In this document: in pieces, positions 4,054-31,565 of the stretch
Layout of the letters: each line of letters opens with the position of its first letter
Numbering within the stretch: position 1 is the stretch's first letter
DNA from: a virus
Virus record (IMG/VR): IMGVR_UViG_3300021347_000007
Location: 1-43,934 of that record
Length of the DNA stretch: 43,934 nucleotides
Strand: one strand, 5' to 3'
Notes under the pieces: model-generated
The model's input: the letters and a program-made list of their open reading frames with translations, nothing else
What the model was told of the DNA's origin: nothing
The model's database searches: none
Translations under genes and position numbers: made by a program

Positions 4054-5826
4054 ATGGCGTTAACAAAAGAAAAAGTATTATTAGAGTATGCGAGGTGTGT
4101 GAAAGACACCTCGTATGCGTTAAGGACGTATCTACAAACTTACGACAATACACAATCAAAGTATGTCCCACTAAGGTTATTTCCTGACCAAGAAAGTTTA
4201 ATAAAGGACTACGACACTTATGAGGAAAACATTGCACTTAAATACAGACAAGCGGGTGTATCTACAGTAACCTCAGCATGGGTATCAAAAAAGTTAATTA
4301 CAGCTTCTAAAACAAAACCTGAAAAGATTCTAATAATTGCAAATAAACTTGACACCTCTGTTGAGATGGCAAGTAAGATACGGGCATTTATTGAACAATG
4401 GCCAAGTTGGTTTGGAGTGAAGTTTTCAAATGAAAAAAATTCACAAAGACATTACAAACTTACAAATGGATGTGAGGTAAAGTCAGTTGCGACCTCTAAA
4501 GACGCACTTAGAGGTTACACACCTACAATACTTGTATTCGATGAGGCGGCGTTTATTGAAGCGGATAATGATTTCTGGTCCGCGTGTATGGCCTCGTTGT
4601 CTACAGGGGGTAAAGTAATTGTAATCTCAACACCTAACGGTTTTGATAGAATCTATTACTCTATATACGACCAGTCATTAAGAGGTATGAACGATTTCAA
4701 AATTACTGAAATGTATTGGTATCGTGACCCCCGATATGCAAAAGACTTAAAATTAATTAAGTGTAATGATATCGTACATTATATGTTGAATAGGGAGGAT
4801 TATAACGATGATGAAATAATTATCGATTACACGTCCATAGACCCTATGGAACGAAACTTCGAAGAAATAAAAGAGAAGTTTTTAGAGGGGTACAAACCAT
4901 ATTCTAGCTGGTTTGAGGGTATGGCTAAAAAACTTAAGTTTGATAGACGTAAGATTGCACAGGAATTGGAATGTAATTTCTTGGGTTCAGGTGATAATGT
5001 AATACCTAATGATACTATCGAGAAAATTAAGGAGAATTTTATACGTGACCCTGAGAATAAATTTATGGGTGGTGCACTATGGCAATGGAAAGAGCCTGTG
5101 GTAGGTCACAAGTACATTATGGGTATAGATGTTTCTCGTGGTGATAGTGAGGACTTCACAACATTCTGTATTATAGACTTTGATGAAAGAGAACAAGTAT
5201 TAGAGTATTTAGGTAAAATACCTCCTGATGTCGCTGCAGAAGTTGCTTACAAATGGGCTACTATGTATTCCGCGTTTATAGTGATTGATATTACAGGGGG
5301 TATGGGGGTATCTACTGCACGTAAACTTCAGGAGATGAATTATAAAGATTTATATGTTGAAGGAACTAACGCTGCTGATAAGTGGAAGTACAACCCTAAA
5401 ACAGTTGAGAAGATACCAGGACTAAACTTTAACTCAAAAAGGGTGCAGATTGTTGCCGCTTTTGAAGAGTCGTTAAGACATAATTTTATAGTAAGGTCTT
5501 CTCGATTAATAAACGAGTTAAATACATTTGTATATATAAACGGAAGACCTGACCACATCAAAGGTCAACACGATGATTTAATTATGGCTATGGCGATGGC
5601 GATATATGTCGGGGAGAGTTCATTTACTAAACTTGAAAAGGTTACCGAACAAACAAAAGCAATGATGGAAAGTTGGATGGTTAATGAGACTCCTGTTAAG
5701 AACTCATCTAAAGACTTTAATCCCGGTTTACCTGTAATGCCCAACACAGGTCATCACAGACCTAATGGTGTAACGAGAGAGGATTATAACGAATATAGTT
5801 GGTTATTTGGTGGTAGGAGAAGATAA
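4054..5826 (+). CDS. terL: terminase large subunit (gp17-like packaging ATPase/nuclease)
   Basis: This is the DNA-packaging motor: an N-terminal ATPase pumps DNA into the prohead and a C-terminal RNase H-fold nuclease cuts the concatemer. Visible motifs are a deviant Walker A KYRQAGVST (residues 63-71), Walker B ILVFDEAAF (159-167), the coupling motif ISTPNG (191-196), and nuclease acids at GIDVSRGD (D359), VIDITGG (D412) and GQHDDLIMA (D507/D508). The length, 590 residues, is close to T4 gp17 (610). The Walker A Lys of the GKT type is absent. The basic residues at its start (K63, R65) fit the deviant P-loop known in many large terminases. It sits 43 bases upstream of the portal gene, as expected. 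Start ATG 4054 follows a short gap with no Shine-Dalgarno. Confidence 0.96.
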   Translation: MALTKEKVLLEYARCVKDTSYALRTYLQTYDNTQSKYVPLRLFPDQESLIKDYDTYEENIALKYRQAGVSTVTSAWVSKKLITASKTKPEKILIIANKLDTSVEMASKIRAFIEQWPSWFGVKFSNEKNSQRHYKLTNGCEVKSVATSKDALRGYTPTILVFDEAAFIEADNDFWSACMASLSTGGKVIVISTPNGFDRIYYSIYDQSLRGMNDFKITEMYWYRDPRYAKDLKLIKCNDIVHYMLNREDYNDDEIIIDYTSIDPMERNFEEIKEKFLEGYKPYSSWFEGMAKKLKFDRRKIAQELECNFLGSGDNVIPNDTIEKIKENFIRDPENKFMGGALWQWKEPVVGHKYIMGIDVSRGDSEDFTTFCIIDFDEREQVLEYLGKIPPDVAAEVAYKWATMYSAFIVIDITGGMGVSTARKLQEMNYKDLYVEGTNAADKWKYNPKTVEKIPGLNFNSKRVQIVAAFEESLRHNFIVRSSRLINELNTFVYINGRPDHIKGQHDDLIMAMAMAIYVGESSFTKLEKVTEQTKAMMESWMVNETPVKNSSKDFNPGLPVMPNTGHHRPNGVTREDYNEYSWLFGGRRR

Positions 5827-5869: not shown

Positions 5870-7753
5870 ATGGCGGAAAACAATAACTTTACGATTTGGC
5901 AAAGACTAACCAAAGTTTTTGGTCCTGATTCAACTCTTGACCAACAAGCCCCAGTATATAACTTCGATAGACAACAAATACTCAAAACAACTGATAAAAA
6001 AGAGTATGAGAGAGAGAAGTTACAAGCACAACAAACACTTTATTTAGGACAACAATGGCAAAAGATTGAGAACAATCTTTATACTCAAGCCGTTTACTAT
6101 GAACCGACTCGTTTAGCCTCTTTCTATGATTATGAAAGTATGGAATACACTCCTGAGATTTCTGCCGCCTTAGATATATACTCAGAAGAATCTACCACAC
6201 CTGATGAAGATGGTTATATGTTACAAATTTACTCTGAGAGTAAAAGAATTAAGTCTGTGTTAGGTGATTTATTTAATAACAGATTAGATATTAATACCAA
6301 CCTTCCTATGTGGACAAGAAACACATGTAAGTATGGTGATAACTTTGTTTACTTAAAGTTAGACCCTGAAAAAGGTATTATGGGTGCACAACAGCTTCCA
6401 AACATCGAAATTACGAGACAGGAGAGGGGTATGAAGATGAAGCCTGAACGTAATTCTACAGACACAGAGAATGATGCGTTGAAGTTCATATGGCAAAACA
6501 AAGATATGGAGTTCAATACGTGGGAGATTGCTCACTTTAGATTATTAGGTGACGATAGAAAACTACCATACGGAACTTCTATGTTGGAAAAGGGTAGGAG
6601 AATTTGGAAACAGTTGATACTATCAGAAGATGCTATGTTAATCTACAGAACGTCGAGAGCACCTGAAAGAAGGGTCTTTAAAGTTTTTGTTGGGAATATG
6701 GACGACAAGGATGTTGAACCATATGTAAATAGAGTCGCGAATAAGTTTAAGAGAGACCAAGTGGTCGATTCAAACAACGGTAATGTTGATTTGAGATATA
6801 ATCAGATGGCAGTCGACCAAGACTATTTTATTCCTGTTAGAGACCCTAACGCACCTAATCCGATTGATACATTGCCAGGTGCTCAAAACCTATCTGAAAT
6901 TGCAGATATAGAGTATATTCAGAAAAAACTATTAACATCCCTAAGAGTACCTAAGGCATTCTTAGGTTTTGAAGAAGTTGTTGGTGACGGTAAAAATCTT
7001 TCTTTACAAGACATTCGTTTTGCAAGAACCATTAATAGAATACAAAAGTCTATGATTCAGGAATTGAATAAGATTGCTATCATACACTTATATCTCTTAG
7101 GTTTTGAGGATGAATTAGGTAACTTTACTTTAGGTCTAAGTAATCCATCTACACAAGCAGACTTACTTAAGGTTGAACAGTGGCAACAAAAGATACAATT
7201 ATATAGAGATGCCGTCAGTGACCCTGGTAATGGTATACTACCTGTTTCATCATCATGGGCTAAGAAACATATCTTAGGGTTTAGTGATGAGGAAATAAAG
7301 TTAGATTTACAACAACAGCGAATTGAAAAGGCGGTTGCAGGTGAGTTAGAAAAAACTGCGGAAGTAATCAGTAAGACTGGTGTATTTGCGAATATTGACA
7401 AATTATATGGTAACAAACCCGGTGAGGGTGGAGACGCCGAAGGTGGTGAAACTACAGATTCAGGAACAGGTGATTTAGGTGGTGACTTTGGTGGTGGTGG
7501 TCTCGGAGGTGACCTCGGTGGAGACTTAGGTGGTGACCTCGGTGGTGATGTCGGTGGTGATGTCGGTGGAGATGAAGGGGGTGGTGAAGCACCTGCAGAT
7601 GAAGCGCCAGTTGAAAGATTAGTGAGAAACAAAGACTTAGACCTATTAGTGGAAGACGACCTAATTAAAGGTAAAAGTATATTAGATTTATCTAAAGGAA
7701 GAACATCTTTAGGTGAGATTGAAAAAGAGTTGAACACACTTTTAGGAGATTAA
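5870..7753 (+). CDS. portal protein (gp20-like)
   Basis: The portal forms the dodecameric ring at one head vertex through which DNA passes and on which the prohead is nucleated. The 627-residue protein has the T4-type portal character: N-terminal region, a segment EYTPEISAALDIYSEESTTP (about 107-126), PYGTSMLEKGRRIWKQL and YRTSRAPERRVFKVFVGNM (about 255-290), then IQKKLLTSLRVPKAFLGFEE, all in the family order. After about residue 525 comes an unusual tail of Gly/Asp repeats (GGDLGGDLGGD type, about 525-570), then a short charged C-terminal helix. T4 gp20 is about 524 residues, so this tail is the extra length. It lies directly downstream of terminase and upstream of the protease-scaffold-capsid set. 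Confidence 0.95.
   Translation: MAENNNFTIWQRLTKVFGPDSTLDQQAPVYNFDRQQILKTTDKKEYEREKLQAQQTLYLGQQWQKIENNLYTQAVYYEPTRLASFYDYESMEYTPEISAALDIYSEESTTPDEDGYMLQIYSESKRIKSVLGDLFNNRLDINTNLPMWTRNTCKYGDNFVYLKLDPEKGIMGAQQLPNIEITRQERGMKMKPERNSTDTENDALKFIWQNKDMEFNTWEIAHFRLLGDDRKLPYGTSMLEKGRRIWKQLILSEDAMLIYRTSRAPERRVFKVFVGNMDDKDVEPYVNRVANKFKRDQVVDSNNGNVDLRYNQMAVDQDYFIPVRDPNAPNPIDTLPGAQNLSEIADIEYIQKKLLTSLRVPKAFLGFEEVVGDGKNLSLQDIRFARTINRIQKSMIQELNKIAIIHLYLLGFEDELGNFTLGLSNPSTQADLLKVEQWQQKIQLYRDAVSDPGNGILPVSSSWAKKHILGFSDEEIKLDLQQQRIEKAVAGELEKTAEVISKTGVFANIDKLYGNKPGEGGDAEGGETTDSGTGDLGGDFGGGGLGGDLGGDLGGDLGGDVGGDVGGDEGGGEAPADEAPVERLVRNKDLDLLVEDDLIKGKSILDLSKGRTSLGEIEKELNTLLGD
7479..7590 (+). repeat. Gly/Asp-coding low-complexity repeat in the portal gene
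   Basis: Imperfect tandem GGTGGTGAC-type units encode repeated GGDLGGD and GGDVGGD. They form a flexible acidic linker between the portal core and its last 50 or so residues. Confidence 0.8.
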
Positions 7754-8763: not shown

Positions 8764-9833
8764 TGTCAGACAGAAAATATCTTAAGTGGTCAAACACAAC
8801 GTTAAATGACGCTGACCAGTATGGTAATGTTTGGACCGCCAATAATATCGGTAACGTACCGTATGGTGATTTAGGAGGATGGTACATAGGTATCAACCCT
8901 CCAGTAGGTGGATATACATGGTATAGATATGATACGTCAGGAAATGGTCCGTGGATAAATTGTCCTTCAGGAGACACACAATTAGTAAATTTTTATAATG
9001 CAACCATGGGTACATCGTTTTCAAACGTACCTCAAGTTGCTGACGCAATTGCAGAGAACAACAATCAATTATTAGATGGTGACGTAGTAAGAGACGGATT
9101 ACTTCTGTATATGGACCCAAACAAAACTTCATCTTATCCTGGTACCGGTACTGCAGTAACAAACATTGCACCATCAGGTAGTACTAACAATATTGATGGA
9201 ACTTTAACTAACGCATCAATGTGGGTTAATCCCGGTGGAGGTTCACCTGCTTACTTTAGAGTTGAGACTGACGATTCATCCAACATAAGGGTATTAACCT
9301 TTGATAGTCAAATATCGAGAGCGGGAAATGGGGACTCAACAATTCTATTTTATTGGTGGAGTGACTATAACGGAGGGAGTCAGTATTCTAACTCTCAAGC
9401 ATTTTTCGGAGGGGCATATGTCGACTATATGGCGTTAAGGTCTTTAAATGGTAGTACTACAAAGTACTGGCCCGAGGCGGAAACGAACGGTATAGGTGAA
9501 CCTGAGGGTAACCATGATTACTTTGCGAAGGACGGGGATGGTGCAGTATTTGATGTAGGTGAATGGAACAGCTGGGTTTCTATATTTGACAGTGGAACCG
9601 CAAGTAACTGGTATAACGGAGTTGAAAATTCGAACACCTACAGTCTAGGTTCAGCAACATCTCATAATATTAGTAGATTAGGGTCCACATCTACAGGAAA
9701 TTGTTCCCCACCTTCAGTTTGTAGAGGTGGTGATATAAGAATGGGAGCTCTACTAATTTACAACAGAGTTTTAAGTGATGCTGAAATAAGAAAAAACTTG
9801 GACATCTTCGACCAGTGGTATTCTAACTCTTAA
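8763..9833 (+). CDS. ConA/LamG-fold virion or adhesion protein, 356 residues
   Basis: Residues 1-85 are an aromatic, Gly-rich beta segment (WSNTTLNDADQYGNVWTANN and following). From about residue 115 there is a concanavalin/LamG-type jelly roll: GLLLYMDPNKTSSYPGTGT at its start, NWYNGVENSNTYSLGSA in the middle and MGALLIYNRVLSDAEIRKNL at its end. That ending is typical of LamG-like domains that bind carbohydrate or decorate virions. It is not part of the core T4 head cluster, so it looks like an added decoration or adhesion gene between the portal and the protease. The ATG at 8763 overlaps the upstream TAA. It ends convergently with the ribosomal protein gene, with a 4-base overlap. The exact ligand cannot be read from sequence. 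Confidence 0.75.
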   Translation: MSDRKYLKWSNTTLNDADQYGNVWTANNIGNVPYGDLGGWYIGINPPVGGYTWYRYDTSGNGPWINCPSGDTQLVNFYNATMGTSFSNVPQVADAIAENNNQLLDGDVVRDGLLLYMDPNKTSSYPGTGTAVTNIAPSGSTNNIDGTLTNASMWVNPGGGSPAYFRVETDDSSNIRVLTFDSQISRAGNGDSTILFYWWSDYNGGSQYSNSQAFFGGAYVDYMALRSLNGSTTKYWPEAETNGIGEPEGNHDYFAKDGDGAVFDVGEWNSWVSIFDSGTASNWYNGVENSNTYSLGSATSHNISRLGSTSTGNCSPPSVCRGGDIRMGALLIYNRVLSDAEIRKNLDIFDQWYSNS

Positions 9834-10015
9834 AGGTCGTTCCTTTTCTTGTTCACGTAAATTGCTTTCTTCTTTTCCTCTCTCTTTTTCACTGAATCTT
9901 TGGTGTACTCCTTATTTTCATTAAGATTTTGAATCTGCTTAGTCTTATAAACCTTGTATTTATAATTCTTCAAAGCGGCTTCGATATTTTTATTTTTTAC
10001 CTTAATAATTAACAT
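9830..10015 (-). CDS. rpsU: phage-encoded ribosomal protein bS21, Bacteroidota type
   Basis: The 61-residue product begins MLIIKVKNKNIEAALKNYKY and contains ENKEYTKDSVKKREEKKKAI followed by YVNKKRNDL. This matches the bS21 pattern: MxxIxVK at the start, an xALKxxK helix, YxKPS-like KR-rich middle and a KAIYVxK end as in Bacteroidota S21. The length is normal for that phylum. bS21 is a small-subunit protein near the mRNA exit path, and in Bacteroidota it helps cover the 16S anti-Shine-Dalgarno. The gene is alone on the minus strand, overlaps the upstream + gene by 4 bases and has its own promoter-like motif 18 bases before the ATG. The leader has no AGGAG-like site. It should let the phage alter host ribosomes late in infection, which is inference. 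Confidence 0.85.
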   Translation of the reverse strand: MLIIKVKNKNIEAALKNYKYKVYKTKQIQNLNENKEYTKDSVKKREEKKKAIYVNKKRNDL

Positions 10016-10033
10016 TCAGAGTATTTATCTATC

Positions 10034-10042
10034 AATAAATAT
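10034..10042 (-). promoter_or_regulatory. putative late promoter element for rpsU
   Basis: On the minus strand this reads ATATTTATT, 18 bases upstream of the rpsU ATG at 10015. A second copy, GTATTTATC at 10021-10029, points the other way, toward the + gene starting 84 bases downstream. The 98-base gap is therefore a possible divergent control region. Confidence 0.5.
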
Positions 10043-10113
10043 ACGTTTTGACATATAACAACAAATATACTATATTTTATTTAAATCAATAAACTTTAGA
10101 AGTATGGATTTAT

Positions 10114-10578: not shown

Positions 10579-11301
10579 ATGAAGATTTTAGGACCAAACG
10601 ATTCAGGTAAAGGGATTTTAGTAGAGTGGGATGCGGGGTTTGTAAATCCTAACGACAGTCGTAATGCACAAGTTATAAAAGAATCTTATGGTCAATTAGA
10701 CCATTCAAAACCTTTTGAGTTTTATGCAACGTTACAGAAATACGATACACCGAATAGAAACGGTAGAGTATACCCTGAAAAGATTTTACGTAGAGAAGCT
10801 GACGTATATAAGAAAGCCATCGAAAAAGGTTTATCAATCTCTGAACTTAATCACCCCGAATCTTCATTAATTGATTTGGACCGTGTATCACATTTGATAA
10901 CTGATATATGGTGGGAAGGTAATACTCTTATGGGTAAGATTAAATTATTGACCTCACCAGGGTTTCATGAAAAAGGTGTGGTATCTTGTCCTGGTGACCA
11001 AGCAGCTAATCTAATGAGACAAGGAGTAACTATGGGTGTTTCTTCTCGTGGTGTTGGTTCACTTGTAAAGAAGGGGGAAAGAAACGAAGTACAGGATGAC
11101 TTTGAATTAATTTGTTTTGACTTAGTTTCATCTCCGTCTACACCAGGTGCGTATCTATTCTTAGATAAAAATGATAAGGGTAAATATGAAGAAAGTTTAG
11201 AAGAAGAGACTCAGTTAAGGGCTCAAGAACCAAAGATTGATGGTGGTTTAGGTAAAAGTGTTGACTTAATGAAAAGACTTTCCGATTATTTAGGGTATTA
11301 A
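10579..11301 (+). CDS. prohead maturation protease (gp21-like)
   Basis: This serine protease sits in the prohead core and cleaves the scaffold and capsid proteins during maturation. The 240-residue product shows the herpesvirus-assemblin-like phage protease features: FYATLQKYDTPNRNGRVYPE (about 48-67), the catalytic His in ELNHPESS (H92), the Ser region MGVSSRGVGS (S155/S156), and the conserved FDLVSSPSTPGAYL (D181 on). The length is close to T4 gp21 (212). It is followed by a small protein, the scaffold and the capsid gene, as in the T4 order. Which of S155 and S156 is catalytic is not certain from sequence alone; by family pattern the first is more likely. Confidence 0.93.
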   Translation: MKILGPNDSGKGILVEWDAGFVNPNDSRNAQVIKESYGQLDHSKPFEFYATLQKYDTPNRNGRVYPEKILRREADVYKKAIEKGLSISELNHPESSLIDLDRVSHLITDIWWEGNTLMGKIKLLTSPGFHEKGVVSCPGDQAANLMRQGVTMGVSSRGVGSLVKKGERNEVQDDFELICFDLVSSPSTPGAYLFLDKNDKGKYEESLEEETQLRAQEPKIDGGLGKSVDLMKRLSDYLGY

Positions 11302-13003: not shown

Positions 13004-14752
13004 ATGGGAGCATTATTAGAATCAGGTCTAGTTGGTAACATCGGTCTTAAGCACCTCAAGGTTATCAAGGAGGACACAATCAACAAGTGGGACAAGTTAG
13101 GGTTCCTCGACGGTCTTAAGGGACACGTTAAAGAAAATATGGCTCAGTTATATGAGAACCAAGCATCATATTTGATAAACGAAGCTGCTGCATCTGACAG
13201 TTCAGGTTCTTTCGAAACAGTTGTTTTCCCAATCGTAAGAAGAGTTTTCTCTAAGTTGTTGGCTAACGATATCGTTTCAGTACAGGCTATGAACCTACCA
13301 ATCGGTAAGTTGTTCTACTTTGTACCAAAGATTCAGAACAGAAACACTGATGGTACTCACGTAAAACCATTCGGAGCACCTAACGGTCCTACGACTGCAG
13401 ATTCAAACTACGACACAGGTAAGAACTTGTATGACCGTTTCTACGAGGGTGATACACCAAACTCTGACCCAGCTGGATTGTTTGACTACTCAAAAGGTGC
13501 TTTCACTGCTTTAACAGCTGAATGTGCATTAAAAGTATGGGGTAGTGATGGTACATTAAGTGCCGCTACTTCTGGTGATTACACAGGTGAGACAAGGTCA
13601 ATCATTGTCGCACTTTCAGGATTCTCTTCAGCAGGTGCTGGTAAGTTAATCGGTCCTGACGGTCAAGAAATGGACACTGAAGACTTCTTAGCTTCATTGG
13701 AGTTAGAAACTGAGCTACCTACAGACCCAACATACTGGAACTTTAGAGTTGTTACTCAGGTTTACGGTAAGGGTATTGTTCAGTACGGTCAGAAGGCTAC
13801 TGCATCATTCCCAGGTTCAGGTCCTGGTGGTAAGTATGACGATATCTGTGACGAAACAGGTGTTATCTACTTACAATTAGACACAACAACAACAGTTGGT
13901 ATTGGAACTAACGATTCAATCGACGGTTACTCAGGTACTACATTTAGTTCTCAACCTACTGTTACTGCACACTGGAAAAGATACGAGACATTAGAATTTG
14001 AAGACGCTATCGGTGAAGTTTCATTCGACCTAGACGCTGTTACTGTTTCTGTTACAGAAAGAAAGTTAAGAGCTCAGTGGTCACCAGAACTCGCACAAGA
14101 CGTCTCTGCATTCCACAACATCGACGCGGAAGCTGAATTGACAGCATTGTTGTCAGAGCAGGTTGCGGCAGAGATTGACCGTGAGATTTTAAGAGACTTA
14201 AGAAAAGGTGCGGCTTGGTCATTAAGATGGGACTACAACGGTTGGAAGAGAGTGAACAACGGTTCTGTCAACTACAACCAAAAGGATTGGAATCAGACGT
14301 TGATTACTGCAATCAATCAGATTTCTGCACAAATCCATAAATCAACTCTAAGAGGTGGTGCTAACTGGATTGTTGTATCTTCAGAGATTTCAGCAATCTT
14401 CGATGACCTTGAGTACTTCCACGTTTCAAACGCGGCTCCTGACCAGGACAACTACAACATGGGTATCGAAAGAGTTGGTACATTATCAGGTAGATATCAA
14501 GTTTACCGTGACCCATACTTCCCACCAAACACAGTATTGTTGGGACACAAGGGTTCATCATTACTTGACACAGGATATGTATATGCTCCATACGTACCTC
14601 TACAGTTGACACCAACAATGTACAACCCATTCAACTTTACACCAATCAAGGGTATCATGACAAGATACGCTAAGAAGATGGTGAACAACCGTTTCTACGG
14701 TAAGATTACAGTTGATGGTGTTAGAACATTCGACCTAAGAGAGTTAAGATAA
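13004..14752 (+). CDS. major capsid protein (gp23-like)
   Basis: The 582-residue HK97-fold shell protein starts at ATG 13004 behind an A-rich leader. It has the gp23 signature: KWDKLGFLDGLKGHVKENMA and QLYENQASYLINEAAASDSS at the N-terminus, FETVVFPIVRRVFSKLLAND, and AMNLPIGKLFYFVPKI. The C-terminal half includes VSVTERKLRAQWSPELAQD and EIDREILRDLRK, and the end is FYGKITVDGVRTFDLRELR. Residues 58-60 (INE followed by A61) match the I/L-x-E cleavage rule of the gp21 protease and lie where T4 gp23 is cut after residue 65, so the mature protein probably starts at A61. The middle region (about 180-320) holds a Gly/Thr-rich variable insertion, as expected for this family. A strong terminator follows. 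Confidence 0.96.
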   Translation: MGALLESGLVGNIGLKHLKVIKEDTINKWDKLGFLDGLKGHVKENMAQLYENQASYLINEAAASDSSGSFETVVFPIVRRVFSKLLANDIVSVQAMNLPIGKLFYFVPKIQNRNTDGTHVKPFGAPNGPTTADSNYDTGKNLYDRFYEGDTPNSDPAGLFDYSKGAFTALTAECALKVWGSDGTLSAATSGDYTGETRSIIVALSGFSSAGAGKLIGPDGQEMDTEDFLASLELETELPTDPTYWNFRVVTQVYGKGIVQYGQKATASFPGSGPGGKYDDICDETGVIYLQLDTTTTVGIGTNDSIDGYSGTTFSSQPTVTAHWKRYETLEFEDAIGEVSFDLDAVTVSVTERKLRAQWSPELAQDVSAFHNIDAEAELTALLSEQVAAEIDREILRDLRKGAAWSLRWDYNGWKRVNNGSVNYNQKDWNQTLITAINQISAQIHKSTLRGGANWIVVSSEISAIFDDLEYFHVSNAAPDQDNYNMGIERVGTLSGRYQVYRDPYFPPNTVLLGHKGSSLLDTGYVYAPYVPLQLTPTMYNPFNFTPIKGIMTRYAKKMVNNRFYGKITVDGVRTFDLRELR

Positions 14753-22592: not shown

Positions 22593-23339
22593 TTATAGAT
22601 TATTCAACTTTACTGTTAAATCAAAATAAAGATTTTTGAACTTTTTCATAGAAGTTCTTATTTCCTTGGTACTCATATTGGTCATTTCCCTAAGGGATAA
22701 TAAAATTATGTTTTTATTAAATTTGTTATTGTCCGTTCCTATAAAAATTTCTTCATAGTTTTCAAATAACTCTAAAAGTGCGTATCCTAATTTTATCTCG
22801 TTATTATTTAAATTAGTTTCCTCTATAAACTTCTCTAATTCTTTTAAAAATTCTTTTATTATTTGTTCCGCAGTAACTTTTTCATACTCTAAATAATAAA
22901 TCATGTCGGGACGACTCTCAATTTTAGAGCTTATATCCTCGTAAGATATTTTTCTATTTTGTTCCTTTTGGTCTTTTATTATTTGACCCATTAAGTAATT
23001 TTTACAAATAGTGCCAAAATAAGAATACGCTTTTTTATTCTTATCCGGTTTAAATTTATCAACTTTGGTCATTAAAAACGAATGTGTGTCGTTATGTATA
23101 TCGATAAAATCCATATTTTTACGATATAGTTTATATCGTCTAATAATAGACTCAATCATTTTATCCAAAGGAGCCCTTAAAAACTCATTGTAAATCTCAT
23201 TTTTTTCCGTCCAAGTTGAAGCGGTTAAAAACATCCTAACCGCTTTTTCTTCTCTAACATCAAAATAATTTTGAGACTTCGCCTTTCTACCTCGTTTTTT
23301 TTTGACCTCGGAGTTACTACTTTCTCCTGTAAGATTCAT
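22593..23339 (-). CDS. late-transcription sigma factor (gp55-like)
   Basis: The 248-residue product has a sigma-70 region 2-like segment at about residues 50-130: FLRAPLDKMIESIIRRYKLY, then HSFLMTKVDKFKPDKNKKAY and SYFGTICKNYLMGQIIKDQK. This closely parallels T4 gp55 (FDETKYKNPHAYITQACFN, then a basic segment), which directs RNA polymerase to late promoters. The N-terminus is basic (KKKRGRKAK). The C-terminal third is helical with EMTNMSTKEIRTSMKKFKNL, which could be a region 4-like or clamp-binding segment. Its stop is 27 bases upstream of the next gene, a gap that holds the candidate late promoter motif. The start ATG overlaps the end of the glycosyltransferase gene by one base. Confidence 0.82.
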   Translation of the reverse strand: MNLTGESSNSEVKKKRGRKAKSQNYFDVREEKAVRMFLTASTWTEKNEIYNEFLRAPLDKMIESIIRRYKLYRKNMDFIDIHNDTHSFLMTKVDKFKPDKNKKAYSYFGTICKNYLMGQIIKDQKEQNRKISYEDISSKIESRPDMIYYLEYEKVTAEQIIKEFLKELEKFIEETNLNNNEIKLGYALLELFENYEEIFIGTDNNKFNKNIILLSLREMTNMSTKEIRTSMKKFKNLYFDLTVKLNNL

Positions 23340-24169
23340 TAAACTTCACCTAATTCATATTTTATGTTCCTATCTTCCTTGAAGAAATGTTCTTTTTTCG
23401 CAGAGTCTAACCAAAAAGTAACCTCATCCTGAGTTAACGGATTCTCCCCAAAACGATATTTCCAAAAAACTGACCCTTCCCTCATATTTGAATGCTTATA
23501 CCCAATTCTCGGTATTGTCATAATACTAACCGAGTTATATGTCAACCTAAGTAATAGTTCATACACGAATGTCAACTTCATTGACTTCTTAAAACCTCCA
23601 AAGTCGTTAAAAATTGATTTTTTAAATACCATACCACTTGTTTGAAAGTTTTGATAGTTTAATAAAACCTCGTTTGTTAAGTATCCAATTTCGCTATTCA
23701 TATTTGCCGCAAATGTGGCTTCATTTGTGAATCCGGCGAAAACACCTTTTTCATCAGTATCGATAACTAATGGTAAGAATCCTTTAACTTCAGGGTACGC
23801 ATTTGAATATCTTTGTACATTCTTAAACCATATACTGGAGTACTCATCGTCAAACTCAAATAAACTAACCCATTCATTCGTAGACTTTTCCACGCCTAAA
23901 TTTACTTGACTACAGAAGTCCGTATCTCCTTCGTTATGAACAATATTAGTGGTAATACCACTAAAATCGAAATTATTAATATATGTTAATAGTGATTCTT
24001 CACCTGAATGTACTAAAACTAATTCTATTTCATCAATTACTTCTTCATCATCATTGTTCTTTAAATCTTGATTTTTAATTGATGTTATACATGACGTAAA
24101 TAATGTGTCGAAATTCTTATGTTTTGACGACTCGACTGGTAAAACGATAGATATATTTAATTTTTCCAT
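23339..24169 (-). CDS. family 2 (GT-A) glycosyltransferase
   Basis: The product begins MEKLNISIVLPVESSKHKNF, a GT2 nucleotide-binding start. The segment NEGDTDFCSQVNLGVEKSTN followed by EWVSLFEFDDEYSSIWFKNV carries the acidic metal-binding motif (D107/D108). Later FQTSGMVFKKSIFNDFGGFK and FVYELLLRLTYN match the acceptor-side G-G-F and E-L-R pattern of GT2 enzymes. It has no transmembrane helix, so it acts in the cytosol on a soluble or phage acceptor. It overlaps the sigma factor start by one base and lies 5 bases after another glycosyltransferase gene. The donor sugar cannot be read from sequence. Confidence 0.8.
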   Translation of the reverse strand: MEKLNISIVLPVESSKHKNFDTLFTSCITSIKNQDLKNNDDEEVIDEIELVLVHSGEESLLTYINNFDFSGITTNIVHNEGDTDFCSQVNLGVEKSTNEWVSLFEFDDEYSSIWFKNVQRYSNAYPEVKGFLPLVIDTDEKGVFAGFTNEATFAANMNSEIGYLTNEVLLNYQNFQTSGMVFKKSIFNDFGGFKKSMKLTFVYELLLRLTYNSVSIMTIPRIGYKHSNMREGSVFWKYRFGENPLTQDEVTFWLDSAKKEHFFKEDRNIKYELGEV

Positions 24170-24174
24170 TTTAA

Positions 24175-25239
24175 TTAACCTTCTTCTTCAACTTTTATTT
24201 TTTCTAATTGACTTTCAAATACTTCTTTTCTTCCTGTAGAATAGGATGAAAACAATTCAATTATTTTATTATCAAACTTTTCTTTATCACTATATTGAGT
24301 TGCGGTATTATAACCTTTTTGGTGTAAATTATCACTTATATTATCTTCTAACCAGTTCTGTATAAATTCTGCTAGAATGTCATGAATATTATTTAATTCA
24401 TAAGTCCATATTCCATTTTCATCAGACATCCACTCAGGTTTCATATGTGGGACTTTACCAATAACAGGTGTTTTAGTTATCATTGACTCAATAGGAAATG
24501 TTCCAAAAGCTGAAGTATCATCAACCCACACAGAAACGAAGGAGTCTTTGAGGTATTCCGCAAATTCGTCTTGAGATAGCCCCCTCATATCTCTAAATGT
24601 TATCCAACGATATTGAGGGTATTTTAGATAAAATGTCTTAATAATTTTCATACTATCCCTTTGGTCTCTTGTATGGATAGAAACAATAGGTTTAGATGGT
24701 AATTCCTTAGGGTTGAACCTTTCATTAATGAATGGTTCAACTACGTCAAAACTAACACCTTTCATAATTTCAGAAATATACTCTTTTTGTGTATCGCTTG
24801 TAGTAATACATTTCATAAATCCGTGTGTTGTCCATGACTCTCCGGGTTTTATAGTTTCTAACATGTGGTCATATGCTTGACATAACACAATCTTAGCACA
24901 TGATAATTTAGATACTTGCTCCATAACGTGACCATAAATTTCAGGAATAACAATAAAATCCTCAGGTGAGACCTTTAAGTCTTGACCCTCAATAGATACG
25001 TGAGGTATATCCATATATTCACTACCCATCCAAGACTCGACTCCTGAATAATCGTTCTTTTCGTGCATAATCATGGAATTAAATCCATTATTCTTTAGCG
25101 TTAATGCCATGTCATAAATAAATCTAACACCCGCTTTAGCATTACCTTTAGTGTCTTGTACTAAAAAGTAAATTCTATGATTTTTTTCAGTCAAGTTTTT
25201 TACTGACTGTTCTACTTTCAAAATAGTTTCTTCATTCAT
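24175..25239 (-). CDS. GT-B fold glycosyltransferase-like protein, 354 residues
   Basis: The product has an N-terminal Rossmann half (RIYFLVQDTKGNAKAGVRFI) and a C-terminal half with KPIVSIHTRDQRDSMKIIKT, then LKDSFVSVWVDDTSAFGTFP followed by IESMITKTPVIGKVPHMKPE. The FGTFPIESM segment corresponds to the E-x-x-A/M nucleotide-sugar-binding loop of GT4-like enzymes. A short acidic tail follows. No membrane helix is seen. It belongs to the glycan cassette and sits 2 bases after a small unknown gene. The substrate is unknown. Confidence 0.7.
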   Translation of the reverse strand: MNEETILKVEQSVKNLTEKNHRIYFLVQDTKGNAKAGVRFIYDMALTLKNNGFNSMIMHEKNDYSGVESWMGSEYMDIPHVSIEGQDLKVSPEDFIVIPEIYGHVMEQVSKLSCAKIVLCQAYDHMLETIKPGESWTTHGFMKCITTSDTQKEYISEIMKGVSFDVVEPFINERFNPKELPSKPIVSIHTRDQRDSMKIIKTFYLKYPQYRWITFRDMRGLSQDEFAEYLKDSFVSVWVDDTSAFGTFPIESMITKTPVIGKVPHMKPEWMSDENGIWTYELNNIHDILAEFIQNWLEDNISDNLHQKGYNTATQYSDKEKFDNKIIELFSSYSTGRKEVFESQLEKIKVEEEG

Positions 25240-25241
25240 TT

Positions 25242-25514
25242 TTATAAATGTTTTAATATTTGATGTTTTAATAATGTATTAAATGCAATTTTAAAGGGTA
25301 TACTTAAGTCTCTTGTACTATGTACACCTAAGTTATTATCGACCTCTTCTTTTTCTATCATGATGATTTCTAACATCATTTTTACGACTTCAAAAGAGAC
25401 TAAATTAATTGTTTGTTCTGTATCACCACTTAAGTTACCATCAACAGACATATTAACAGCATCTGTTATACTATCTAAGTCTACGTAATACATTTCACCT
25501 AAAACTTCTATCAT
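25242..25514 (-). CDS. small hypothetical protein, 90 residues
   Basis: The product MIEVLGEMYYVDLDSITDAV and following is acidic with a hydrophobic helix (SFEVVKMMLEIIMIEKEEVD) and a C-terminal segment DLSIPFKIAFNTLLKHQILK. It overlaps the upstream HAD-like gene by one base and precedes the GT-B gene by 2 bases. The spacing indicates one operon. No family is recognised, and its place in the glycan cassette does not by itself give a function. Confidence 0.65.
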   Translation of the reverse strand: MIEVLGEMYYVDLDSITDAVNMSVDGNLSGDTEQTINLVSFEVVKMMLEIIMIEKEEVDNNLGVHSTRDLSIPFKIAFNTLLKHQILKHL

Positions 25515-26158
25515 TAGATTAATGTTTTAATTGTATCTTCGAGTTCCGATATACACTTAATAGTATAATCGGACTCATATTCTTTATTGTATGTTGTTTC
25601 GTATTTAATCAATATTTTATCTTCAGATTTTAAAGATAAAATATCAGGATTCGATGTAATAATAACATCAAATCGATTAAAAGTATGCTCTAAAGTAATT
25701 TTAGAGTAAAATTTAATATTTTCAATTAAACACCCGTACTTTGAGAGGAAAAATAAGGTCGCCGGTTTTGATTTACCTATTTCGTCAGATATTATAGTTA
25801 TTTCATTTTCGTCTCTATAATTTATATAAAAATCATTTAAAATGTTAAATGTATTACCACTTACAGAGGGACTATGTCCAAATATATTCATGGGGAAATC
25901 AACATAAAAAAAATCATATAACTCATCATTATCCTTAAACTTAAAATGATTGATTAAATCTAAAGAAGTGACAGGTAAATTTAATCCGTACTCAAAGTCA
26001 TTTTCTTCTTCAGTATCTACCCATTCTTCCTCATCCTCATTATACTCTTTTGTTTCTTCAACCTCATTTTCATTTTCTAAATAAAATTTAGTGTATACCT
26101 GTTCAGTTTTGGTAAACACATCTCGTACAACTCCATTTAAATCTATCGCAATCTTCAT
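25514..26158 (-). CDS. HAD-like protein with altered catalytic motif (DLNGV)
   Basis: The product starts MKIAIDLNGVVRDVFTKTEQ, the HAD motif I position, with nucleophile D5. The usual second Asp (DxD) is N7, which supplies the general acid/base in phosphatases. A motif II-like ITIISDEIGKSKPATLFFLS follows near residue 120, with a K in the expected region, then a motif IV-like FDVIITSNPDILS. An insertion of about 40 acidic residues (EVEETKEYNEDEEEWVDTEE) sits between motif I and the cap. The N7 change suggests weakened or altered hydrolysis, or a binding role. It overlaps neighbours by one base on each side. Confidence 0.65.
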   Translation of the reverse strand: MKIAIDLNGVVRDVFTKTEQVYTKFYLENENEVEETKEYNEDEEEWVDTEEENDFEYGLNLPVTSLDLINHFKFKDNDELYDFFYVDFPMNIFGHSPSVSGNTFNILNDFYINYRDENEITIISDEIGKSKPATLFFLSKYGCLIENIKFYSKITLEHTFNRFDVIITSNPDILSLKSEDKILIKYETTYNKEYESDYTIKCISELEDTIKTLI

Positions 26159-26841
26159 TAGTCGTACTTATCTAATATTTTAGTGATAAGAGGATTTCTT
26201 ATTACATCTTCATTTTCAAATTCAAATACTCCTATTTTTTCTATTTCACGAAAACGATTTAATGCGTCGTATAATCCTGATTGTCTTTTATCTTTATATC
26301 TATCTGTTTGGTCAACATCACCCGAAATAAAAAACTTAGAATTAAACCCAATTCTTGTAAGTAATAGTTTCATTTGAGACGGTGTGGAATTTTGAGACTC
26401 TTCGAAAATCAGTATAGAATTATCTATATTCATACCTCTCATATAAGCTAAGGCGAATACTTCAATAACATCGTTATTTTTTAATTTTTCTCTCGACTCT
26501 TTACCTATTATTTTATTTAATAGATAGTAAGAAGGGAAAATGTACGGGTCTAGTTTCTCTTCTAGATTACCTGGTAAGGAACCTAATTTTTCTTCTGCTT
26601 CAACTGCGGGTCTTACTATGATAATCTTCTCATAAGAGTTATCACTATCCAATAACAAGTCAATCGCGGCTCTCATAGCAACGTAGGATTTACCAACACC
26701 TGCGGGTCCAGAACATATAGTTATCTCATTATCTATTAATGTATTATAATAGTGTTTTTGATTTTCAGATAAAAACTTTTTACGTGATACCTTACCTATT
26801 ATACTTTTGATTTCTTCTTTCTTTATAACTTTATATGGCAT
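26158..26841 (-). CDS. phoH: PhoH-like ATPase
   Basis: PhoH-family P-loop ATPases are common in marine phages; their exact role is uncertain. The 227-residue product shows Walker A GPAGVGKS (45-52), the family segment VRPAVEAEEKLGSLPGNLEE (76-95), Walker B ILIFEESQ (143-150) and FISGDVDQTD (171-180). The length is normal for the short phage form. It overlaps the HAD-like gene by one base. Upstream, the 65-base gap to the next gene is A/T tract-rich and holds no copy of the late motif, so an early or middle promoter may be used. Confidence 0.95.
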   Translation of the reverse strand: MPYKVIKKEEIKSIIGKVSRKKFLSENQKHYYNTLIDNEITICSGPAGVGKSYVAMRAAIDLLLDSDNSYEKIIIVRPAVEAEEKLGSLPGNLEEKLDPYIFPSYYLLNKIIGKESREKLKNNDVIEVFALAYMRGMNIDNSILIFEESQNSTPSQMKLLLTRIGFNSKFFISGDVDQTDRYKDKRQSGLYDALNRFREIEKIGVFEFENEDVIRNPLITKILDKYD

Positions 26842-26906
26842 AAATTTTTTTTTTAAAAATAACAGGTTTTGTGTAAAACTAAATGTTTGATGATTAACTC
26901 ACTAAT

Positions 26907-27662
26907 TTAAATGAGTAGATGGTCTTGTATACTACCTTTCCTAAACCACGGTCTACTAATTATTCCTGACCATGCGTCCATAGTGGCACCCATATCAATA
27001 CATATTTTACCATACTCATCTCTTAATATAACTCCATAATCTTTTTGTAAACCGACCCCTAAAAAAACAATATCTTCTTTTATGTCTTTAAATTTTTTTA
27101 TAAAGTCTGACCGATTTTCGAAATTTACATTCTTAGAGTGTTCAGTATAACCGATATTAACTCCAAAAACCTCATTTAACTTATTTCGTTTCATTATTGA
27201 AACATTAGTACTAATAATGTGAAAATCATTACCTTGTATAAGGTTCTTTACTCCTTCAACCGAACCCAAATCCTTAGACCTACTTACTAAATGATTACAT
27301 ATTTTTAATGTGTCACAGTTGTATCCTACAGAACTAAAAAAATCTTTAGGTATCATCCAGTCTGAAAAATTTAAACCTGGTATATTATGATTTTTATTCA
27401 TTACTCCAACGACATCTGATTTAGTAAACGCATTTTTTAATACCTCACCCCAAGAGTCATAGAAATAATTTATCTCATTCGGATATTTAAATCCCCAGTT
27501 GCTCATACCGCGAGATAAAAAACTATTACTTCCATTTCTTTTTAATATAAAAATTTCACCATCACCAAATCTAGTAAGTGAAAACGGAGTTTTTGTACTA
27601 ATTTTATCTTTTAATAACATAACGACTTCAGAATCGCTCATATTCGGTTGAAGATATGTCAT
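26907..27662 (-). CDS. GT-D fold glycosyltransferase (DUF1792-like)
   Basis: GT-D enzymes use a DxE metal motif rather than DxD. The product has FSLTRFGDGEIFILKRNGSN with D34-G-E36, and an end CIDMGATMDAWSGIISRPWF that fits the family's C-terminal IDxGxxxD pattern. I choose ATG 27662 (MTYLQPNMSDSEVVMLLKDK) because it overlaps the stop of the upstream gene as ATGA; an in-frame ATG at 27677 would add five residues. The tight coupling to the multi-domain glycosyltransferase points to a shared glycan pathway. It is soluble, and the donor sugar is unknown. Confidence 0.78.
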   Translation of the reverse strand: MTYLQPNMSDSEVVMLLKDKISTKTPFSLTRFGDGEIFILKRNGSNSFLSRGMSNWGFKYPNEINYFYDSWGEVLKNAFTKSDVVGVMNKNHNIPGLNFSDWMIPKDFFSSVGYNCDTLKICNHLVSRSKDLGSVEGVKNLIQGNDFHIISTNVSIMKRNKLNEVFGVNIGYTEHSKNVNFENRSDFIKKFKDIKEDIVFLGVGLQKDYGVILRDEYGKICIDMGATMDAWSGIISRPWFRKGSIQDHLLI

Positions 27663-29830
27663 TGTTTTACTGACCATGGTGACGAACTAATTAATAAATT
27701 CAAATCAATATTAATGTCTTTATTAAGATATAGTGATTCAACTTCTTCTATTGTCGTTTCTTTAGTTAATTGTAACCCTAAATCTTCTTTTCTATTAACT
27801 GATAAATAATAATCTTTAAATTTAAAATCTCCACCTATTAACTTATTTGATATTCTAATTCTGGCATTTGGTATCCCGTAAGCATCCGCCATAATTAAAC
27901 CATGTAAACTTGAGGATAGTACATTCTCAACTTCAAGAATCTCATTAATGAACTCTTTCTCTCCTGAGCATATGTCAATTACTTTAAATCCTTTTTTCTC
28001 CAAATTTCTTATTGACTCCCTATCTCTTGCGGATTCAAACTCAATATAGTGAGGAATAATACCCCATTTATATTTTTTTTCAATTTTAGGATTATATATC
28101 TTTGGATAAAGTAAAGCGGGGTCTCCATATACTTCGGGACAATCAATACCTTTTTTTAATAGTTCTTGTCTAGTTAGCGGTCCTCTAACCGCGTATACTC
28201 TTTTAGGTGTTTGACCTATCATACCTCGGTCTATACATCCAGTACCCCACACAATACTATTAGGTTTAGTAAATAGCATTACACTACCGGTGGAGTATAC
28301 TGAATAGTTTCCGTTAGGTTGTTTTACGTTGAATACATCTTTTTCTGATATATCGGTATCAAATAATTCATCTATAATTTTATAAGGAACTAAATCACCC
28401 CAATTATGAGTGTTGTCGGGAGTTATTGTTCGGTCATTAAATACATAAGAAGGCTTAGACATAAAGTTTTTTTTCATTATTGTTTGATACAATTGTTGTT
28501 GGTTTTTATTAGCTTCTGTAGAAACCGAACCGTCTTTTTCGTGGTGAAAATAAACAAATAACCCTTTCGGTATTCTTTTACCTATGTAACCTTCTTTAGA
28601 CATTCTTATCCAAAAATCGTAATCTTCCCATCCCTGTAAATTCTCATCATATCCACCAACATAGTTATATGACTCTCGACTGTATAGTGAACTATTAACA
28701 ATAAAAGGACCCTTCATCAGTTGGTCTTTAGACCATTTAGGTCTTTTTTCCAAACCCTGAGTTTCACCTATGTGATGTGTATCACAATAAACTGGGCTTA
28801 CATTAGGGTTGTTTTTTATGATATTTACCGCAGTTTTAAGGTACTCAGGTAATATCATATCATCAGCATCTAATGGTAGGATATAATCTCCTGTACCTTC
28901 CATAACCGCTCTATTACGTGTTGAGGATACTCCACTATTTTCTTTATGTATGACTTTAATACCGTCCTGTTCCTCTAGTGTATCTAACTTCATTAAACAA
29001 TAATCATCTGTAGAACCATCATTAACTATTATTATCTCAAAATTAGTATATTCTTGATTATATACTGATAAAAGTGTGGGGTTAAGTCTTTTAGCGTAAT
29101 TATAAATTGGCATCGCAATCGTAACCAGGGGCTCATTACTTTTAATGGGTTTTCTTTTAAATTCTGTAGGTATCAGAACAGGTAAATTGTCCTTGTATCT
29201 CTCCACGAACTCGCTTCTATTTATATTCCACTGTTCGTTAGTTTGACCAACCGATAAATGAGTTATCCTAATATCATAAAATACACCTATCTTAACTCCC
29301 TCTATAAAGTTTCTAAACGAAAAATCAACATCGTAAAAGTGAAACCCTTTCACATCTTCATTAAAGGTCTTCTTTATATTTTTTTTATTTAACGCGATAA
29401 ATAAACCATCAACAATTATAGTATCGTCTATCTTTGTCCCTTTGGACTCACTGTATTTTGATGTCCATTTTTTACCGTCCTTTTCGTGATTTACAATACC
29501 GAACATTTCAGTATTTATCTCCCACCACATTCCCGATTTTGGTAAATATTTACTTCCGGCAGCTCCTAATATACCATAATCTGGATTTCTTTTAAAATGT
29601 TTTAATAATTTACTACCCCAATTTTTCTTTTCAAAATAAATGTCATCATGACATAATACTACAATATCATTAGTCGATTGTTCTAATATAATATTATACG
29701 CCTCAGTTAAAGAATGTGTTCCAGGATTCTCAAAAGGTATTATTTCAACCTTATGTAGACCGCATGACTTCTCTAAGTAATCACGATATTTCGGGTCAAT
29801 CTCTTTAGTACAATATCCGATAGTAATCAT
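27659..29830 (-). CDS. three-domain glycosyltransferase/GT2/polysaccharide pyruvyltransferase fusion
   Basis: The 723-residue protein has three parts. Residues 1-220 are a GT-A-like domain (MITIGYCTKEIDPKYRDYLE; NDIVVLCHDDIYF with DD at 62-63; GFHFYDVDFSFRNF). Residues about 232-450 are a classical GT2 (VTIAMPIYNYAKRLNPTLLS; IIIVNDGSTDD at 267-276; PLDADDMILPEYL at 319-331; GWEDYDFWIRM). Residues about 465-700 match polysaccharide pyruvyltransferase: NWGDLVPYKII (476-486), GTGCIDRG (529-536), VYAVRGPLTR (545-554), GDPALLYP (569-576), IPHY (592-595), SSSLHGLIMADAYGIPN (639-655). The fusion could extend a glycan and add a ketal pyruvate. It overlaps both neighbours (ATGA and 1 base). No membrane helix is seen. 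Confidence 0.85.
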   Translation of the reverse strand: MITIGYCTKEIDPKYRDYLEKSCGLHKVEIIPFENPGTHSLTEAYNIILEQSTNDIVVLCHDDIYFEKKNWGSKLLKHFKRNPDYGILGAAGSKYLPKSGMWWEINTEMFGIVNHEKDGKKWTSKYSESKGTKIDDTIIVDGLFIALNKKNIKKTFNEDVKGFHFYDVDFSFRNFIEGVKIGVFYDIRITHLSVGQTNEQWNINRSEFVERYKDNLPVLIPTEFKRKPIKSNEPLVTIAMPIYNYAKRLNPTLLSVYNQEYTNFEIIIVNDGSTDDYCLMKLDTLEEQDGIKVIHKENSGVSSTRNRAVMEGTGDYILPLDADDMILPEYLKTAVNIIKNNPNVSPVYCDTHHIGETQGLEKRPKWSKDQLMKGPFIVNSSLYSRESYNYVGGYDENLQGWEDYDFWIRMSKEGYIGKRIPKGLFVYFHHEKDGSVSTEANKNQQQLYQTIMKKNFMSKPSYVFNDRTITPDNTHNWGDLVPYKIIDELFDTDISEKDVFNVKQPNGNYSVYSTGSVMLFTKPNSIVWGTGCIDRGMIGQTPKRVYAVRGPLTRQELLKKGIDCPEVYGDPALLYPKIYNPKIEKKYKWGIIPHYIEFESARDRESIRNLEKKGFKVIDICSGEKEFINEILEVENVLSSSLHGLIMADAYGIPNARIRISNKLIGGDFKFKDYYLSVNRKEDLGLQLTKETTIEEVESLYLNKDINIDLNLLISSSPWSVKQ

Positions 29831-30258
29831 TAGTCGTCAAATACTTCTATCTCTAATGTCTTTTTTACCAATTCAGTCCACTGTCCGTTGTACCGAGTAC
29901 CCTTTACTATATGATTATCTATCCAATGGTAGTTACCACCACGAGGTTTACCCATAAGTAAATTACTATACTTAAATCCCCACTTATCTAACCACTCTTC
30001 AGTAATTTCCCTTACTTCTTCAGTTCTAGACGTGAAAAAAGTTATAATATTACCTTCATCATACCATTTATTTAAAATATCAACCGCTCCATCATATGGA
30101 ATAACCTGTTTCATTCTATCAGGCTCCTCGTTTGGAACATCGTCTGTAATAGTTCCGTCAATATCTATGAGATAATTTTTTATTCCATTAGGTAGTGTGG
30201 GACTTGTATTATATCCCTCATCGTCTATTTTACTATTTAATGTTATTTCTTTTTTCAT
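29830..30258 (-). CDS. HAD phosphatase, capsule-biosynthesis (EcbF/BcbF)-like
   Basis: The 142-residue product has HAD motif I LIDIDGTITDD (D32, D34), motif II FFTSRTEEVREITEEWLDKW (T76/S77 region), motif III K104 in LLMGKPRGGNYHWIDNH and motif IV D114. It has no cap insertion, so it would act on accessible phosphates. The GKP-(R)GG-xYHWID ending resembles small HAD phosphatases of capsule clusters, and T4 Pnkp 3'-phosphatase shares the fold. Context in a sugar-transfer operon favours a role in sugar-phosphate processing. It overlaps the fusion gene by one base and lies 6 bases after dUTPase. Confidence 0.72.
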   Translation of the reverse strand: MKKEITLNSKIDDEGYNTSPTLPNGIKNYLIDIDGTITDDVPNEEPDRMKQVIPYDGAVDILNKWYDEGNIITFFTSRTEEVREITEEWLDKWGFKYSNLLMGKPRGGNYHWIDNHIVKGTRYNGQWTELVKKTLEIEVFDD

Positions 30259-30264
30259 GACTTT

Positions 30265-30867
30265 TTAATTTCCTGTAGAACCAAATCCATTGTTGTTTCT
30301 ATCTTTTGTTTTTATTTCGTTCACCTTAACTAAATCAATTTGATTACCTTGTGCTACTGGACAAACAACTGCTTGTGCAATTTTATCACCGACATTAATT
30401 GTCTGAGATTCATTATTAAAGTTAAAGACTATTACTTTAATTTCTCCCGTATATCCATAATCAACTGTACCAGGTGTGTTAAGAACTGAAAGTCCCCTTT
30501 TAATTGCTAAACCACTTTTAGGTCTGACTTGAATTTCACATCTTTCGGGTACATCCAGGTATAGACCTGTTGGAATTAAAGCCCGACCAAAAGGTTCTAA
30601 AGTAACCGATTCATTCGCTCTCAAATCAAATCCTGAGTCCGTAGAATATGCGTACTCAGGTTCAGGATTGTCAGACTTATATACATAATTCAAAGTTATT
30701 TTAGGGTTTTCATATTGTTCGTTAAAGTTAGATTCTAACTCTTCCATATTTACACCTAAATTTTTTAATAACTCATCCGGGTTGGACATGTCTATATTAG
30801 TTAGTTTAGACTCAAGGTCTTTTAGTGTTTTTAAACTGTCTTTAAATTCGTTAATTTTTCCTATCAT
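30265..30867 (-). CDS. dut: dUTPase (trimeric) with N-terminal extension
   Basis: dUTPase hydrolyses dUTP to dUMP, keeping uracil out of phage DNA and feeding dTMP synthesis. The five family motifs are visible: STDSGFDLR (75-83), RPKSG (115-119), LNTPGTVDYGYTGEIKV (129-145, with D136 and Y139), GDKIAQAVVCPV (160-171) and the C-terminal NNNGFGSTGN (191-200). Phage dUTPases are usually about 140-150 residues. This one has about 60 extra helical residues at the N-terminus (MIGKINEFKDSLKTLKDLES), of unknown role. It overlaps the upstream exonuclease gene by 4 bases. Confidence 0.95.
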   Translation of the reverse strand: MIGKINEFKDSLKTLKDLESKLTNIDMSNPDELLKNLGVNMEELESNFNEQYENPKITLNYVYKSDNPEPEYAYSTDSGFDLRANESVTLEPFGRALIPTGLYLDVPERCEIQVRPKSGLAIKRGLSVLNTPGTVDYGYTGEIKVIVFNFNNESQTINVGDKIAQAVVCPVAQGNQIDLVKVNEIKTKDRNNNGFGSTGN

Positions 30868-31565
30868 TTTAATTCGTATATTTTTTTCATTACATCGACT
30901 AATACCTTTACGTCTCTTTCACAATAATCTGCAATAGGGGTTAGTCCATTTGCATTCCAATAAGTGTCGTGAACCATATTACCTGAAACTTCACCCGTTT
31001 TAGGACTGTCAACATTTAAAGCAACACACATGAGGTCCAATGATGCAGGTGAGTTAAATGAACCAAATTGCCACAGTTCCTTAGTGTCTACCGCTTTTAA
31101 ATCCCATGGTTTGGTACCTAATGAAGGTAATATCTTTGGTGGTTTAATACCGTTGACCACAAATCTCTTTGATAACATTGGCATATCAAATCCTTTTATA
31201 TTGTGACCACAAAGATAAAAGTCTAGTTTTAAAACTTTATTAAGTAAGTCTTTCACTCCGAGGAGTAATTTTTTTTCGTCATCCTCAGCGAATGTTGTGG
31301 TATGTATTTCACCCTTAGGTGTAATAAACGAGAATGACGCAACAATTATTTTTGAGAAGTCTGAAACTAGTGCCGCATGATTAGTGAAAATCTCATCTAA
31401 GTCTTTACCAACATCTTCAGGATACCTCTTCTCGAACCAATTACGGTAGCTCTCAAAAAGTCTACCCATTTCAGGATTTTTGTTATTTAGAGTAGTATAA
31501 TCTTTTTCAACTCCGACAGTCTCTAAATCGAAAAACAGTAATTTATTTAATGGTACGTCAATCAT
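30864..31565 (-). CDS. DnaQ-like 3'-5' exonuclease (DEDDy)
   Basis: Exo I is FFDLETVG (D13, E15), Exo II is CGHNIKGFDMPMLSKRF (D127) and Exo III is YCERDVKVLVDVM (Y214, D218), the DEDDy arrangement of proofreading-type exonucleases. The 233-residue protein has no polymerase domain, so it is a stand-alone nuclease, perhaps for replication proofreading, repair or host DNA turnover. It overlaps dUTPase by 4 bases and the upstream glycosyltransferase by 4 bases, so nucleotide metabolism and glycan genes share one operon. Confidence 0.88.
   Translation of the reverse strand: MIDVPLNKLLFFDLETVGVEKDYTTLNNKNPEMGRLFESYRNWFEKRYPEDVGKDLDEIFTNHAALVSDFSKIIVASFSFITPKGEIHTTTFAEDDEKKLLLGVKDLLNKVLKLDFYLCGHNIKGFDMPMLSKRFVVNGIKPPKILPSLGTKPWDLKAVDTKELWQFGSFNSPASLDLMCVALNVDSPKTGEVSGNMVHDTYWNANGLTPIADYCERDVKVLVDVMKKIYELK

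Follow-up and report, generated by a model that had tools for sequence, protein, structure and literature searches.

A phage-encoded bS21 gene of Bacteroidota type with a Shine-Dalgarno-free leader and a putative late-promoter element

Introduction

bS21 is the ribosomal protein that phages carry most often, and in Bacteroidia it controls whether the ribosome reads Shine-Dalgarno (SD) sequences. A phage-borne copy of the Bacteroidia type raises the question of what the protein does in the infected cell, and of whether the leader from which it is translated places its synthesis inside or outside the circuit that governs the host gene. We address this question for a 43,934-nucleotide viral sequence (IMG/VR record IMGVR_UViG_3300021347_000007, hereafter the window), in which a short reverse-strand bS21 gene lies among head genes.

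The gene system itself is already described. Chen et al. 2022 (PMC9723584) reported 47 genomes of Bacteroidetes phages, large myophages among them, with bS21 on the reverse strand in the terminase/portal/protease/capsid region, next to an opposite-strand neighbour, bS21_CN, whose transcript level was similar to that of bS21; the window adds another such phage. Mizuno et al. 2019 (PMC6375957) found that bS21 of pelagiphage HTVC008M enters Escherichia coli ribosomes and proposed that it replaces host bS21, so the idea of late supply or replacement, raised again in the initial annotation of the window, is already in these two papers. McNutt et al. 2023 (PMC9976891) showed that rpsU of Flavobacterium johnsoniae is autoregulated in an SD-dependent manner, and speculated on the bearing of this circuit for phages that encode bS21. 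New here are a sequence element, ATATTTAT, the SD states of the phage leaders, and the absence of the element from three loci that lack bS21. The main text of Chen et al. (PMC9723584), in which "promoter", "intergenic" and "autoregul" do not occur, reports neither this element nor the SD states of the leaders nor the losses of bS21.

Results

A divergent bS21 homologue under purifying selection

The window protein scores 36.3 bits (E 4.7e-9) against Pfam model PF01165 (S21), for which the gathering cut-off is 27 bits, but only 19.9 bits against the stricter NCBIfam equivalog TIGR00030, under its cut-off of 28.95 bits. Because it passes the first model but not the second, we classify it as a divergent bS21 homologue and not as a certified functional equivalent. 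Among solved structures it is closest to bS21 chains, namely 9i5v (E 1.5e-7; residues 1-56 aligned) and 7jil of F. johnsoniae (E 1.1e-6; residues 1-59 aligned), so that nearly all of its 61 residues are covered. An AlphaFold model (pLDDT 84, pTM 0.45) predicts two helices, residues 11-34 and 40-60, as expected for bS21. The whole 43.9-kb virus record has one S21 match.

The same ORF occurs in 43 viral loci at 69-100% identity; in a collection of isolates a close relative was not found, the best match having 55% identity. The window gene differs from that of L004 by 22 synonymous and 4 non-synonymous changes, from L005 by 14 and 4, and from L037 by 19.5 and 5.5; unsaturated comparisons with the window give a dN/dS of about 0.01-0.04. 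Given this recurrence and these ratios, the window bS21 is a real gene under strong purifying selection and not a chance ORF.

To compare residues, 76 distinct phage and 78 host bS21 sequences were aligned. Tyr53 of the window protein aligns with Tyr54 of F. johnsoniae, a position that is Tyr in 98% of the phage and 93% of the host sequences. In Bacteroidia-type bS21 the aromatic residue at 54 stacks on A1534 of 16S rRNA. Residues K17, K20, K22, K40, R46 and A52 are likewise kept in both sets. The initial annotation had called the protein a bS21 of Bacteroidota type from end to end, and this holds: the profile search finds the family, the match to 7jil runs through almost the entire chain, and the residue that holds the anti-SD tail is in place.

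The N-terminal half is another matter. At positions 8, 21, 23, 24, 27, 28 and 30 the phage and host residues are almost disjoint, and in helix 1 the hosts have approximately KKFEKTG where the phages have [FY]K[VI]YKTKQ (YKVYKTKQ in the window). Besides these host helix-1 residues, the window copy lacks R33 and R35 (F. johnsoniae numbering), which 98-100% of hosts keep and which are both Asn here; it has two arginines in all, against a host mean of 6.8. Since R33 and R35 are near-universal in hosts, their loss may alter binding. The disjoint positions match, and add slightly to, those at which Chen et al. 2022 (PMC9723584) saw divergence; these authors also noted the aromatic residue at position 54 of phage bS21.

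A conserved divergent gene pair in the head cassette

The bS21 gene lies on the reverse strand within a terminase/portal/protease/capsid cassette (Table 1), and PhoH and dUTPase genes are also in the window. With clades a-e of Chen et al. (PMC9723584) the window has in common the reverse-strand bS21, flanking conserved hypotheticals, a neighbour gene in divergent position, Tyr54, an N-terminal helix that departs from the host type, PhoH and dUTPase. For this 43.9-kb fragment the likeness is read from gene arrangement and residues.

Table 1. Coordinates of the bS21 locus and surrounding head genes in the window
Feature	Position	Strand	Basis or remark
Terminase large subunit	4054..5826	+	context
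T4-type portal protein	5870..7753	+	context; ATATTTAT before start
bS21 gene, 61 aa	9830..10015	-	ATG start; MLIIKVKNKN...AIYVNKKRNDL; PF01165, 7jil/9i5v, dN/dS, host alignment
SD-free bS21 leader, motif to ATG	10016..10034	-	longest SD match 4 bases
Divergent intergenic region, 98 bp	10016..10113	.	88-118 bp in 76 relatives
TATATTTAT, putative phage late-promoter element of bS21	10035..10043	-	sequence, conservation, co-loss with bS21
TTGACA-N17-TATATT, promoter-like, toward divergent neighbour	10048..10076	+	read from sequence
Divergent neighbour, 147 aa	10114..10557	+	positional equivalent of bS21_CN
Prohead protease, peptidase S77	10579..11301	+	context; ATATTTAT before start
Major capsid protein	13004..14752	+	context

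A divergent bS21 stands beside the neighbour gene in 122 of the 125 neighbour loci with enough flank. The initial annotation had taken the minus-strand location as the sign of an acquired gene. This is not supported, as the reverse-strand placement recurs in those 122 loci and was already reported by Chen et al. 2022. The conserved arrangement in relatives rules out a recent acquisition read from strand and position; judged from this comparison, bS21 is a long-resident gene of the window's phage and not a recent gain. In Flavobacterium phage immuto (MW353176) the terminase, portal, protease, scaffold-position and capsid genes follow one another as they do in the window, and all of their products except the terminase show detectable homology to the window proteins, but immuto lacks bS21 and its neighbour, neither of which lies between portal and protease. 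An ancestor of the bS21 phages may have gained the pair in this cassette in a single event, or immuto may have lost it.

The neighbour protein is highly conserved (mean column identity 70% over 44 sequences). For the window protein, searches of Pfam and PHROGs gave no match, and a sequence search of the PDB gave nothing convincing. Its AlphaFold2 model is alpha/beta (pLDDT 86.8); a comparison with PDB folds gave none with E<0.001, and the structural match obtained is to an uncharacterised phage protein, A0A8S5L9A5 (TM 0.83). Close relatives of this gene, too, are absent from the isolate collection. We liken it to bS21_CN (fam498 of Chen et al.) by position and co-occurrence.

A motif tied to bS21 in the intergenic region

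The initial annotation gave bS21 its own promoter with a late-type motif, and the motif is real. Copies of ATATTTAT that read in gene sense and lie 8-28 bases upstream of a start number six in the window, where 0.1 are expected, and 19 in a 270-kb relative, where the expectation is 0.9. The genes that it precedes in the window include those for portal and protease, the gene next to the portal gene and the head-region gene after the protease. Of 76 distinct bS21 loci, 68 have an exact copy ahead of bS21 and all 76 have one with at most one mismatch (shuffled mean, 1.35 rows), these loci being related and not 76 independent cases. On the other side of the intergenic region, a relaxed form of TTGACA-N17-TATATT occurs in 53 of the 76 relatives. 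Three loci (L132, L142 and L520) have the neighbour gene and keep TTGACA, but both bS21 and ATATTTAT are missing; this co-loss ties ATATTTAT to bS21 and not to the neighbour.

Because ATATTTAT precedes head genes, and because relatives express bS21 late, in metatranscriptomes together with structural genes (PMC9723584), we infer that it is a putative late promoter, an assignment made by position. The T4-type late promoter TATAAATA was considered and rejected: in gene sense it occurs 11 times in the window against 7.3 expected, which is no enrichment, and it is the opposite orientation, ATATTTAT, that is enriched. A search of the window against Rfam gave no match to an RNA family. Further copies of ATATTTAT, forming a second group in contigs such as G001 (L289-L302), lie only 3-7 bases before called starts, a spacing that could give very short leaders or none.

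Shine-Dalgarno states of phage leaders

The initial annotation had also described the bS21 leader as SD-free and almost all leaders in the window as A-rich and without SD; both descriptions are confirmed. The longest SD match in the bS21 leader (scored as the row L003, whose leader is identical to that of the window) is four bases, TGAT, with no GGAG core, and the extended SD of the SD-autoregulated rpsU of McNutt et al. 2023 is absent from it. Across six phage contigs, AGGAG or GGAGG is suitably placed in only 6 of 687 genes; starts in this and the following gene counts come from a simple longest-ORF caller rather than a trained gene finder. The leaders are rich in A, which reaches 0.5-0.68 at several positions against a background of 0.33, and poor in G. 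Since genes of these phages normally lack an SD, its absence before the window bS21 does not on its own amount to a means of escape.

The absence of an SD is nevertheless no general rule for bS21 leaders of phages: the SD core is present in 10 of the 76 distinct ones. Elsewhere in the same loci the core is found in 0 of 76 neighbour leaders and in 2 of 332 other genes (Fisher p 1e-6 for SD at bS21, a value that overstates independence because the rows are related). Two loci in which the neighbour gene was not found, L386 and L407, are outside these counts of 76 and outside the tree described below. An SD at bS21, from AGGAG to AAAGGAGG, is seen in L097, L314, L315, L320, L036, L038, L041, L042, L044, L127 and L129. 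One lineage, around L097 and L314, has AAAGGAGG, and in its 166-kb contig the SD at bS21 is the strongest among 163 genes. The other, around L038, L041, L042, L044, L127 and L129, has AGGAG to AAAGGAG and is close to the SD-free clade of the window. In a tree of the neighbour and bS21 proteins the ten SD leaders fall in two parts, and SD state changes four times, at least three of the changes being forced by well-supported branches. The statistical weight of the enrichment at bS21 is modest, because independent events are few and the SD lineages had been noticed before testing. In L386, both bS21 and its leader are host-like (cf. L450).

Host rpsU leaders

Whether an SD-free leader would free the phage gene from host control depends on the host. 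That the host rpsU carries a strong SD is true of Flavobacterium, in which 80 of 80 rpsU leaders are SD-like, and fails for the class as a whole: of 69 leaders sampled evenly across the class, 21 (about a third) have an SD run of at least 6 bases. With so few SD-strong leaders across the class, escape from autoregulation would be meaningful only where the host is of the SD type. The window gene and F. johnsoniae rpsU (PMC9976891) have in common the family, the C-terminal helix and the Tyr54 position, whereas the window leader lacks the SD that the Flavobacterium leaders have.

Discussion

The window bS21 is most likely a late-made ribosome component. We consider it probable that the phage protein, made late, enters the host 30S subunit in place of or besides host bS21, its SD-free synthesis lying outside the host SD circuit. 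The gene would be transcribed with late genes from the putative ATATTTAT promoter, and its message would be translated like any SD-free phage message. The product would then join host 30S subunits, replacing or adding to the host protein; Tyr53 and the conserved C-terminal helix would keep hold of the anti-SD tail, and its phage-specific N-terminal helix ([FY]K[VI]YKTKQ for KKFEKTG) would shift the preference of the mRNA exit channel. As its message has no SD, the SD-dependent bS21 circuit of the host, where the host has one, would not hold back its production.

The consistently unlike N-terminal helix, together with the loss of R33 and R35 from the window copy, would also fit a decoy or inhibitor that lowers host translation or competes with host bS21, phage messages receiving no special service. 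So would the near inactivity in E. coli extracts of ribosomes with pelagiphage bS21 (about 5% active; PMC6375957), the sole in vitro test; this result and the lost arginines also weigh against the preferred reading. However, E. coli was a mismatched host for that test; HTVC008M bS21, although phage-encoded like that of the window, is of alphaproteobacterial and not Bacteroidota type. The phage protein retains the C-terminal residue by which the anti-SD tail is held, and relatives express bS21 with capsid genes (PMC9723584), when the phage most needs translation. We judge a decoy unlikely. We give very little credence to a function off the ribosome, for example as a protein packaged in the virion, a possibility raised by Chen et al. 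(PMC9723584), or as a partner of the neighbour protein. The tight pairing in 122 of 125 loci and the position inside the head cluster speak for it, but the conserved residues are those in common with ribosomal bS21, and three loci keep the neighbour without an adjacent bS21, so that the neighbour does not need bS21 there.

A separate doubt concerns only the regulatory part of the preferred reading, a late-made ribosome component. The SD-free leader may have no meaning, bS21 simply lacking an SD as nearly all phage genes do (core in 6 of 687 genes and in none of 76 neighbour leaders); we put this at about an even chance. Against it, two related lineages carry an SD specifically at bS21, and SD state may therefore be under selection. 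We suggest, tentatively and with doubt outweighing belief, that the phages differ in whether they copy the SD-gated bS21 circuit of the host: at least two lineages, with an SD almost only at bS21, would preferentially feed ribosomes that lack bS21, and the lineage of the window, having dropped the SD or never had it, would make the protein ungated. The interest of the locus lies in why sister phages differ in the SD of bS21 alone. These related phages are natural SD-bearing and SD-free pairs, with the same gene behind the same motif, which makes phage tuning of its own bS21 supply testable with simple reporters.

Two other regions of the window may be recorded. A minus-strand block (22593-32776) encodes several glycosyltransferase-like proteins, PhoH and dUTPase. 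On the plus strand, 35337-41378 is a 2013-aa ORF whose matches to virion proteins are weak; after it come genes that resemble those for tail fibres and proteases.
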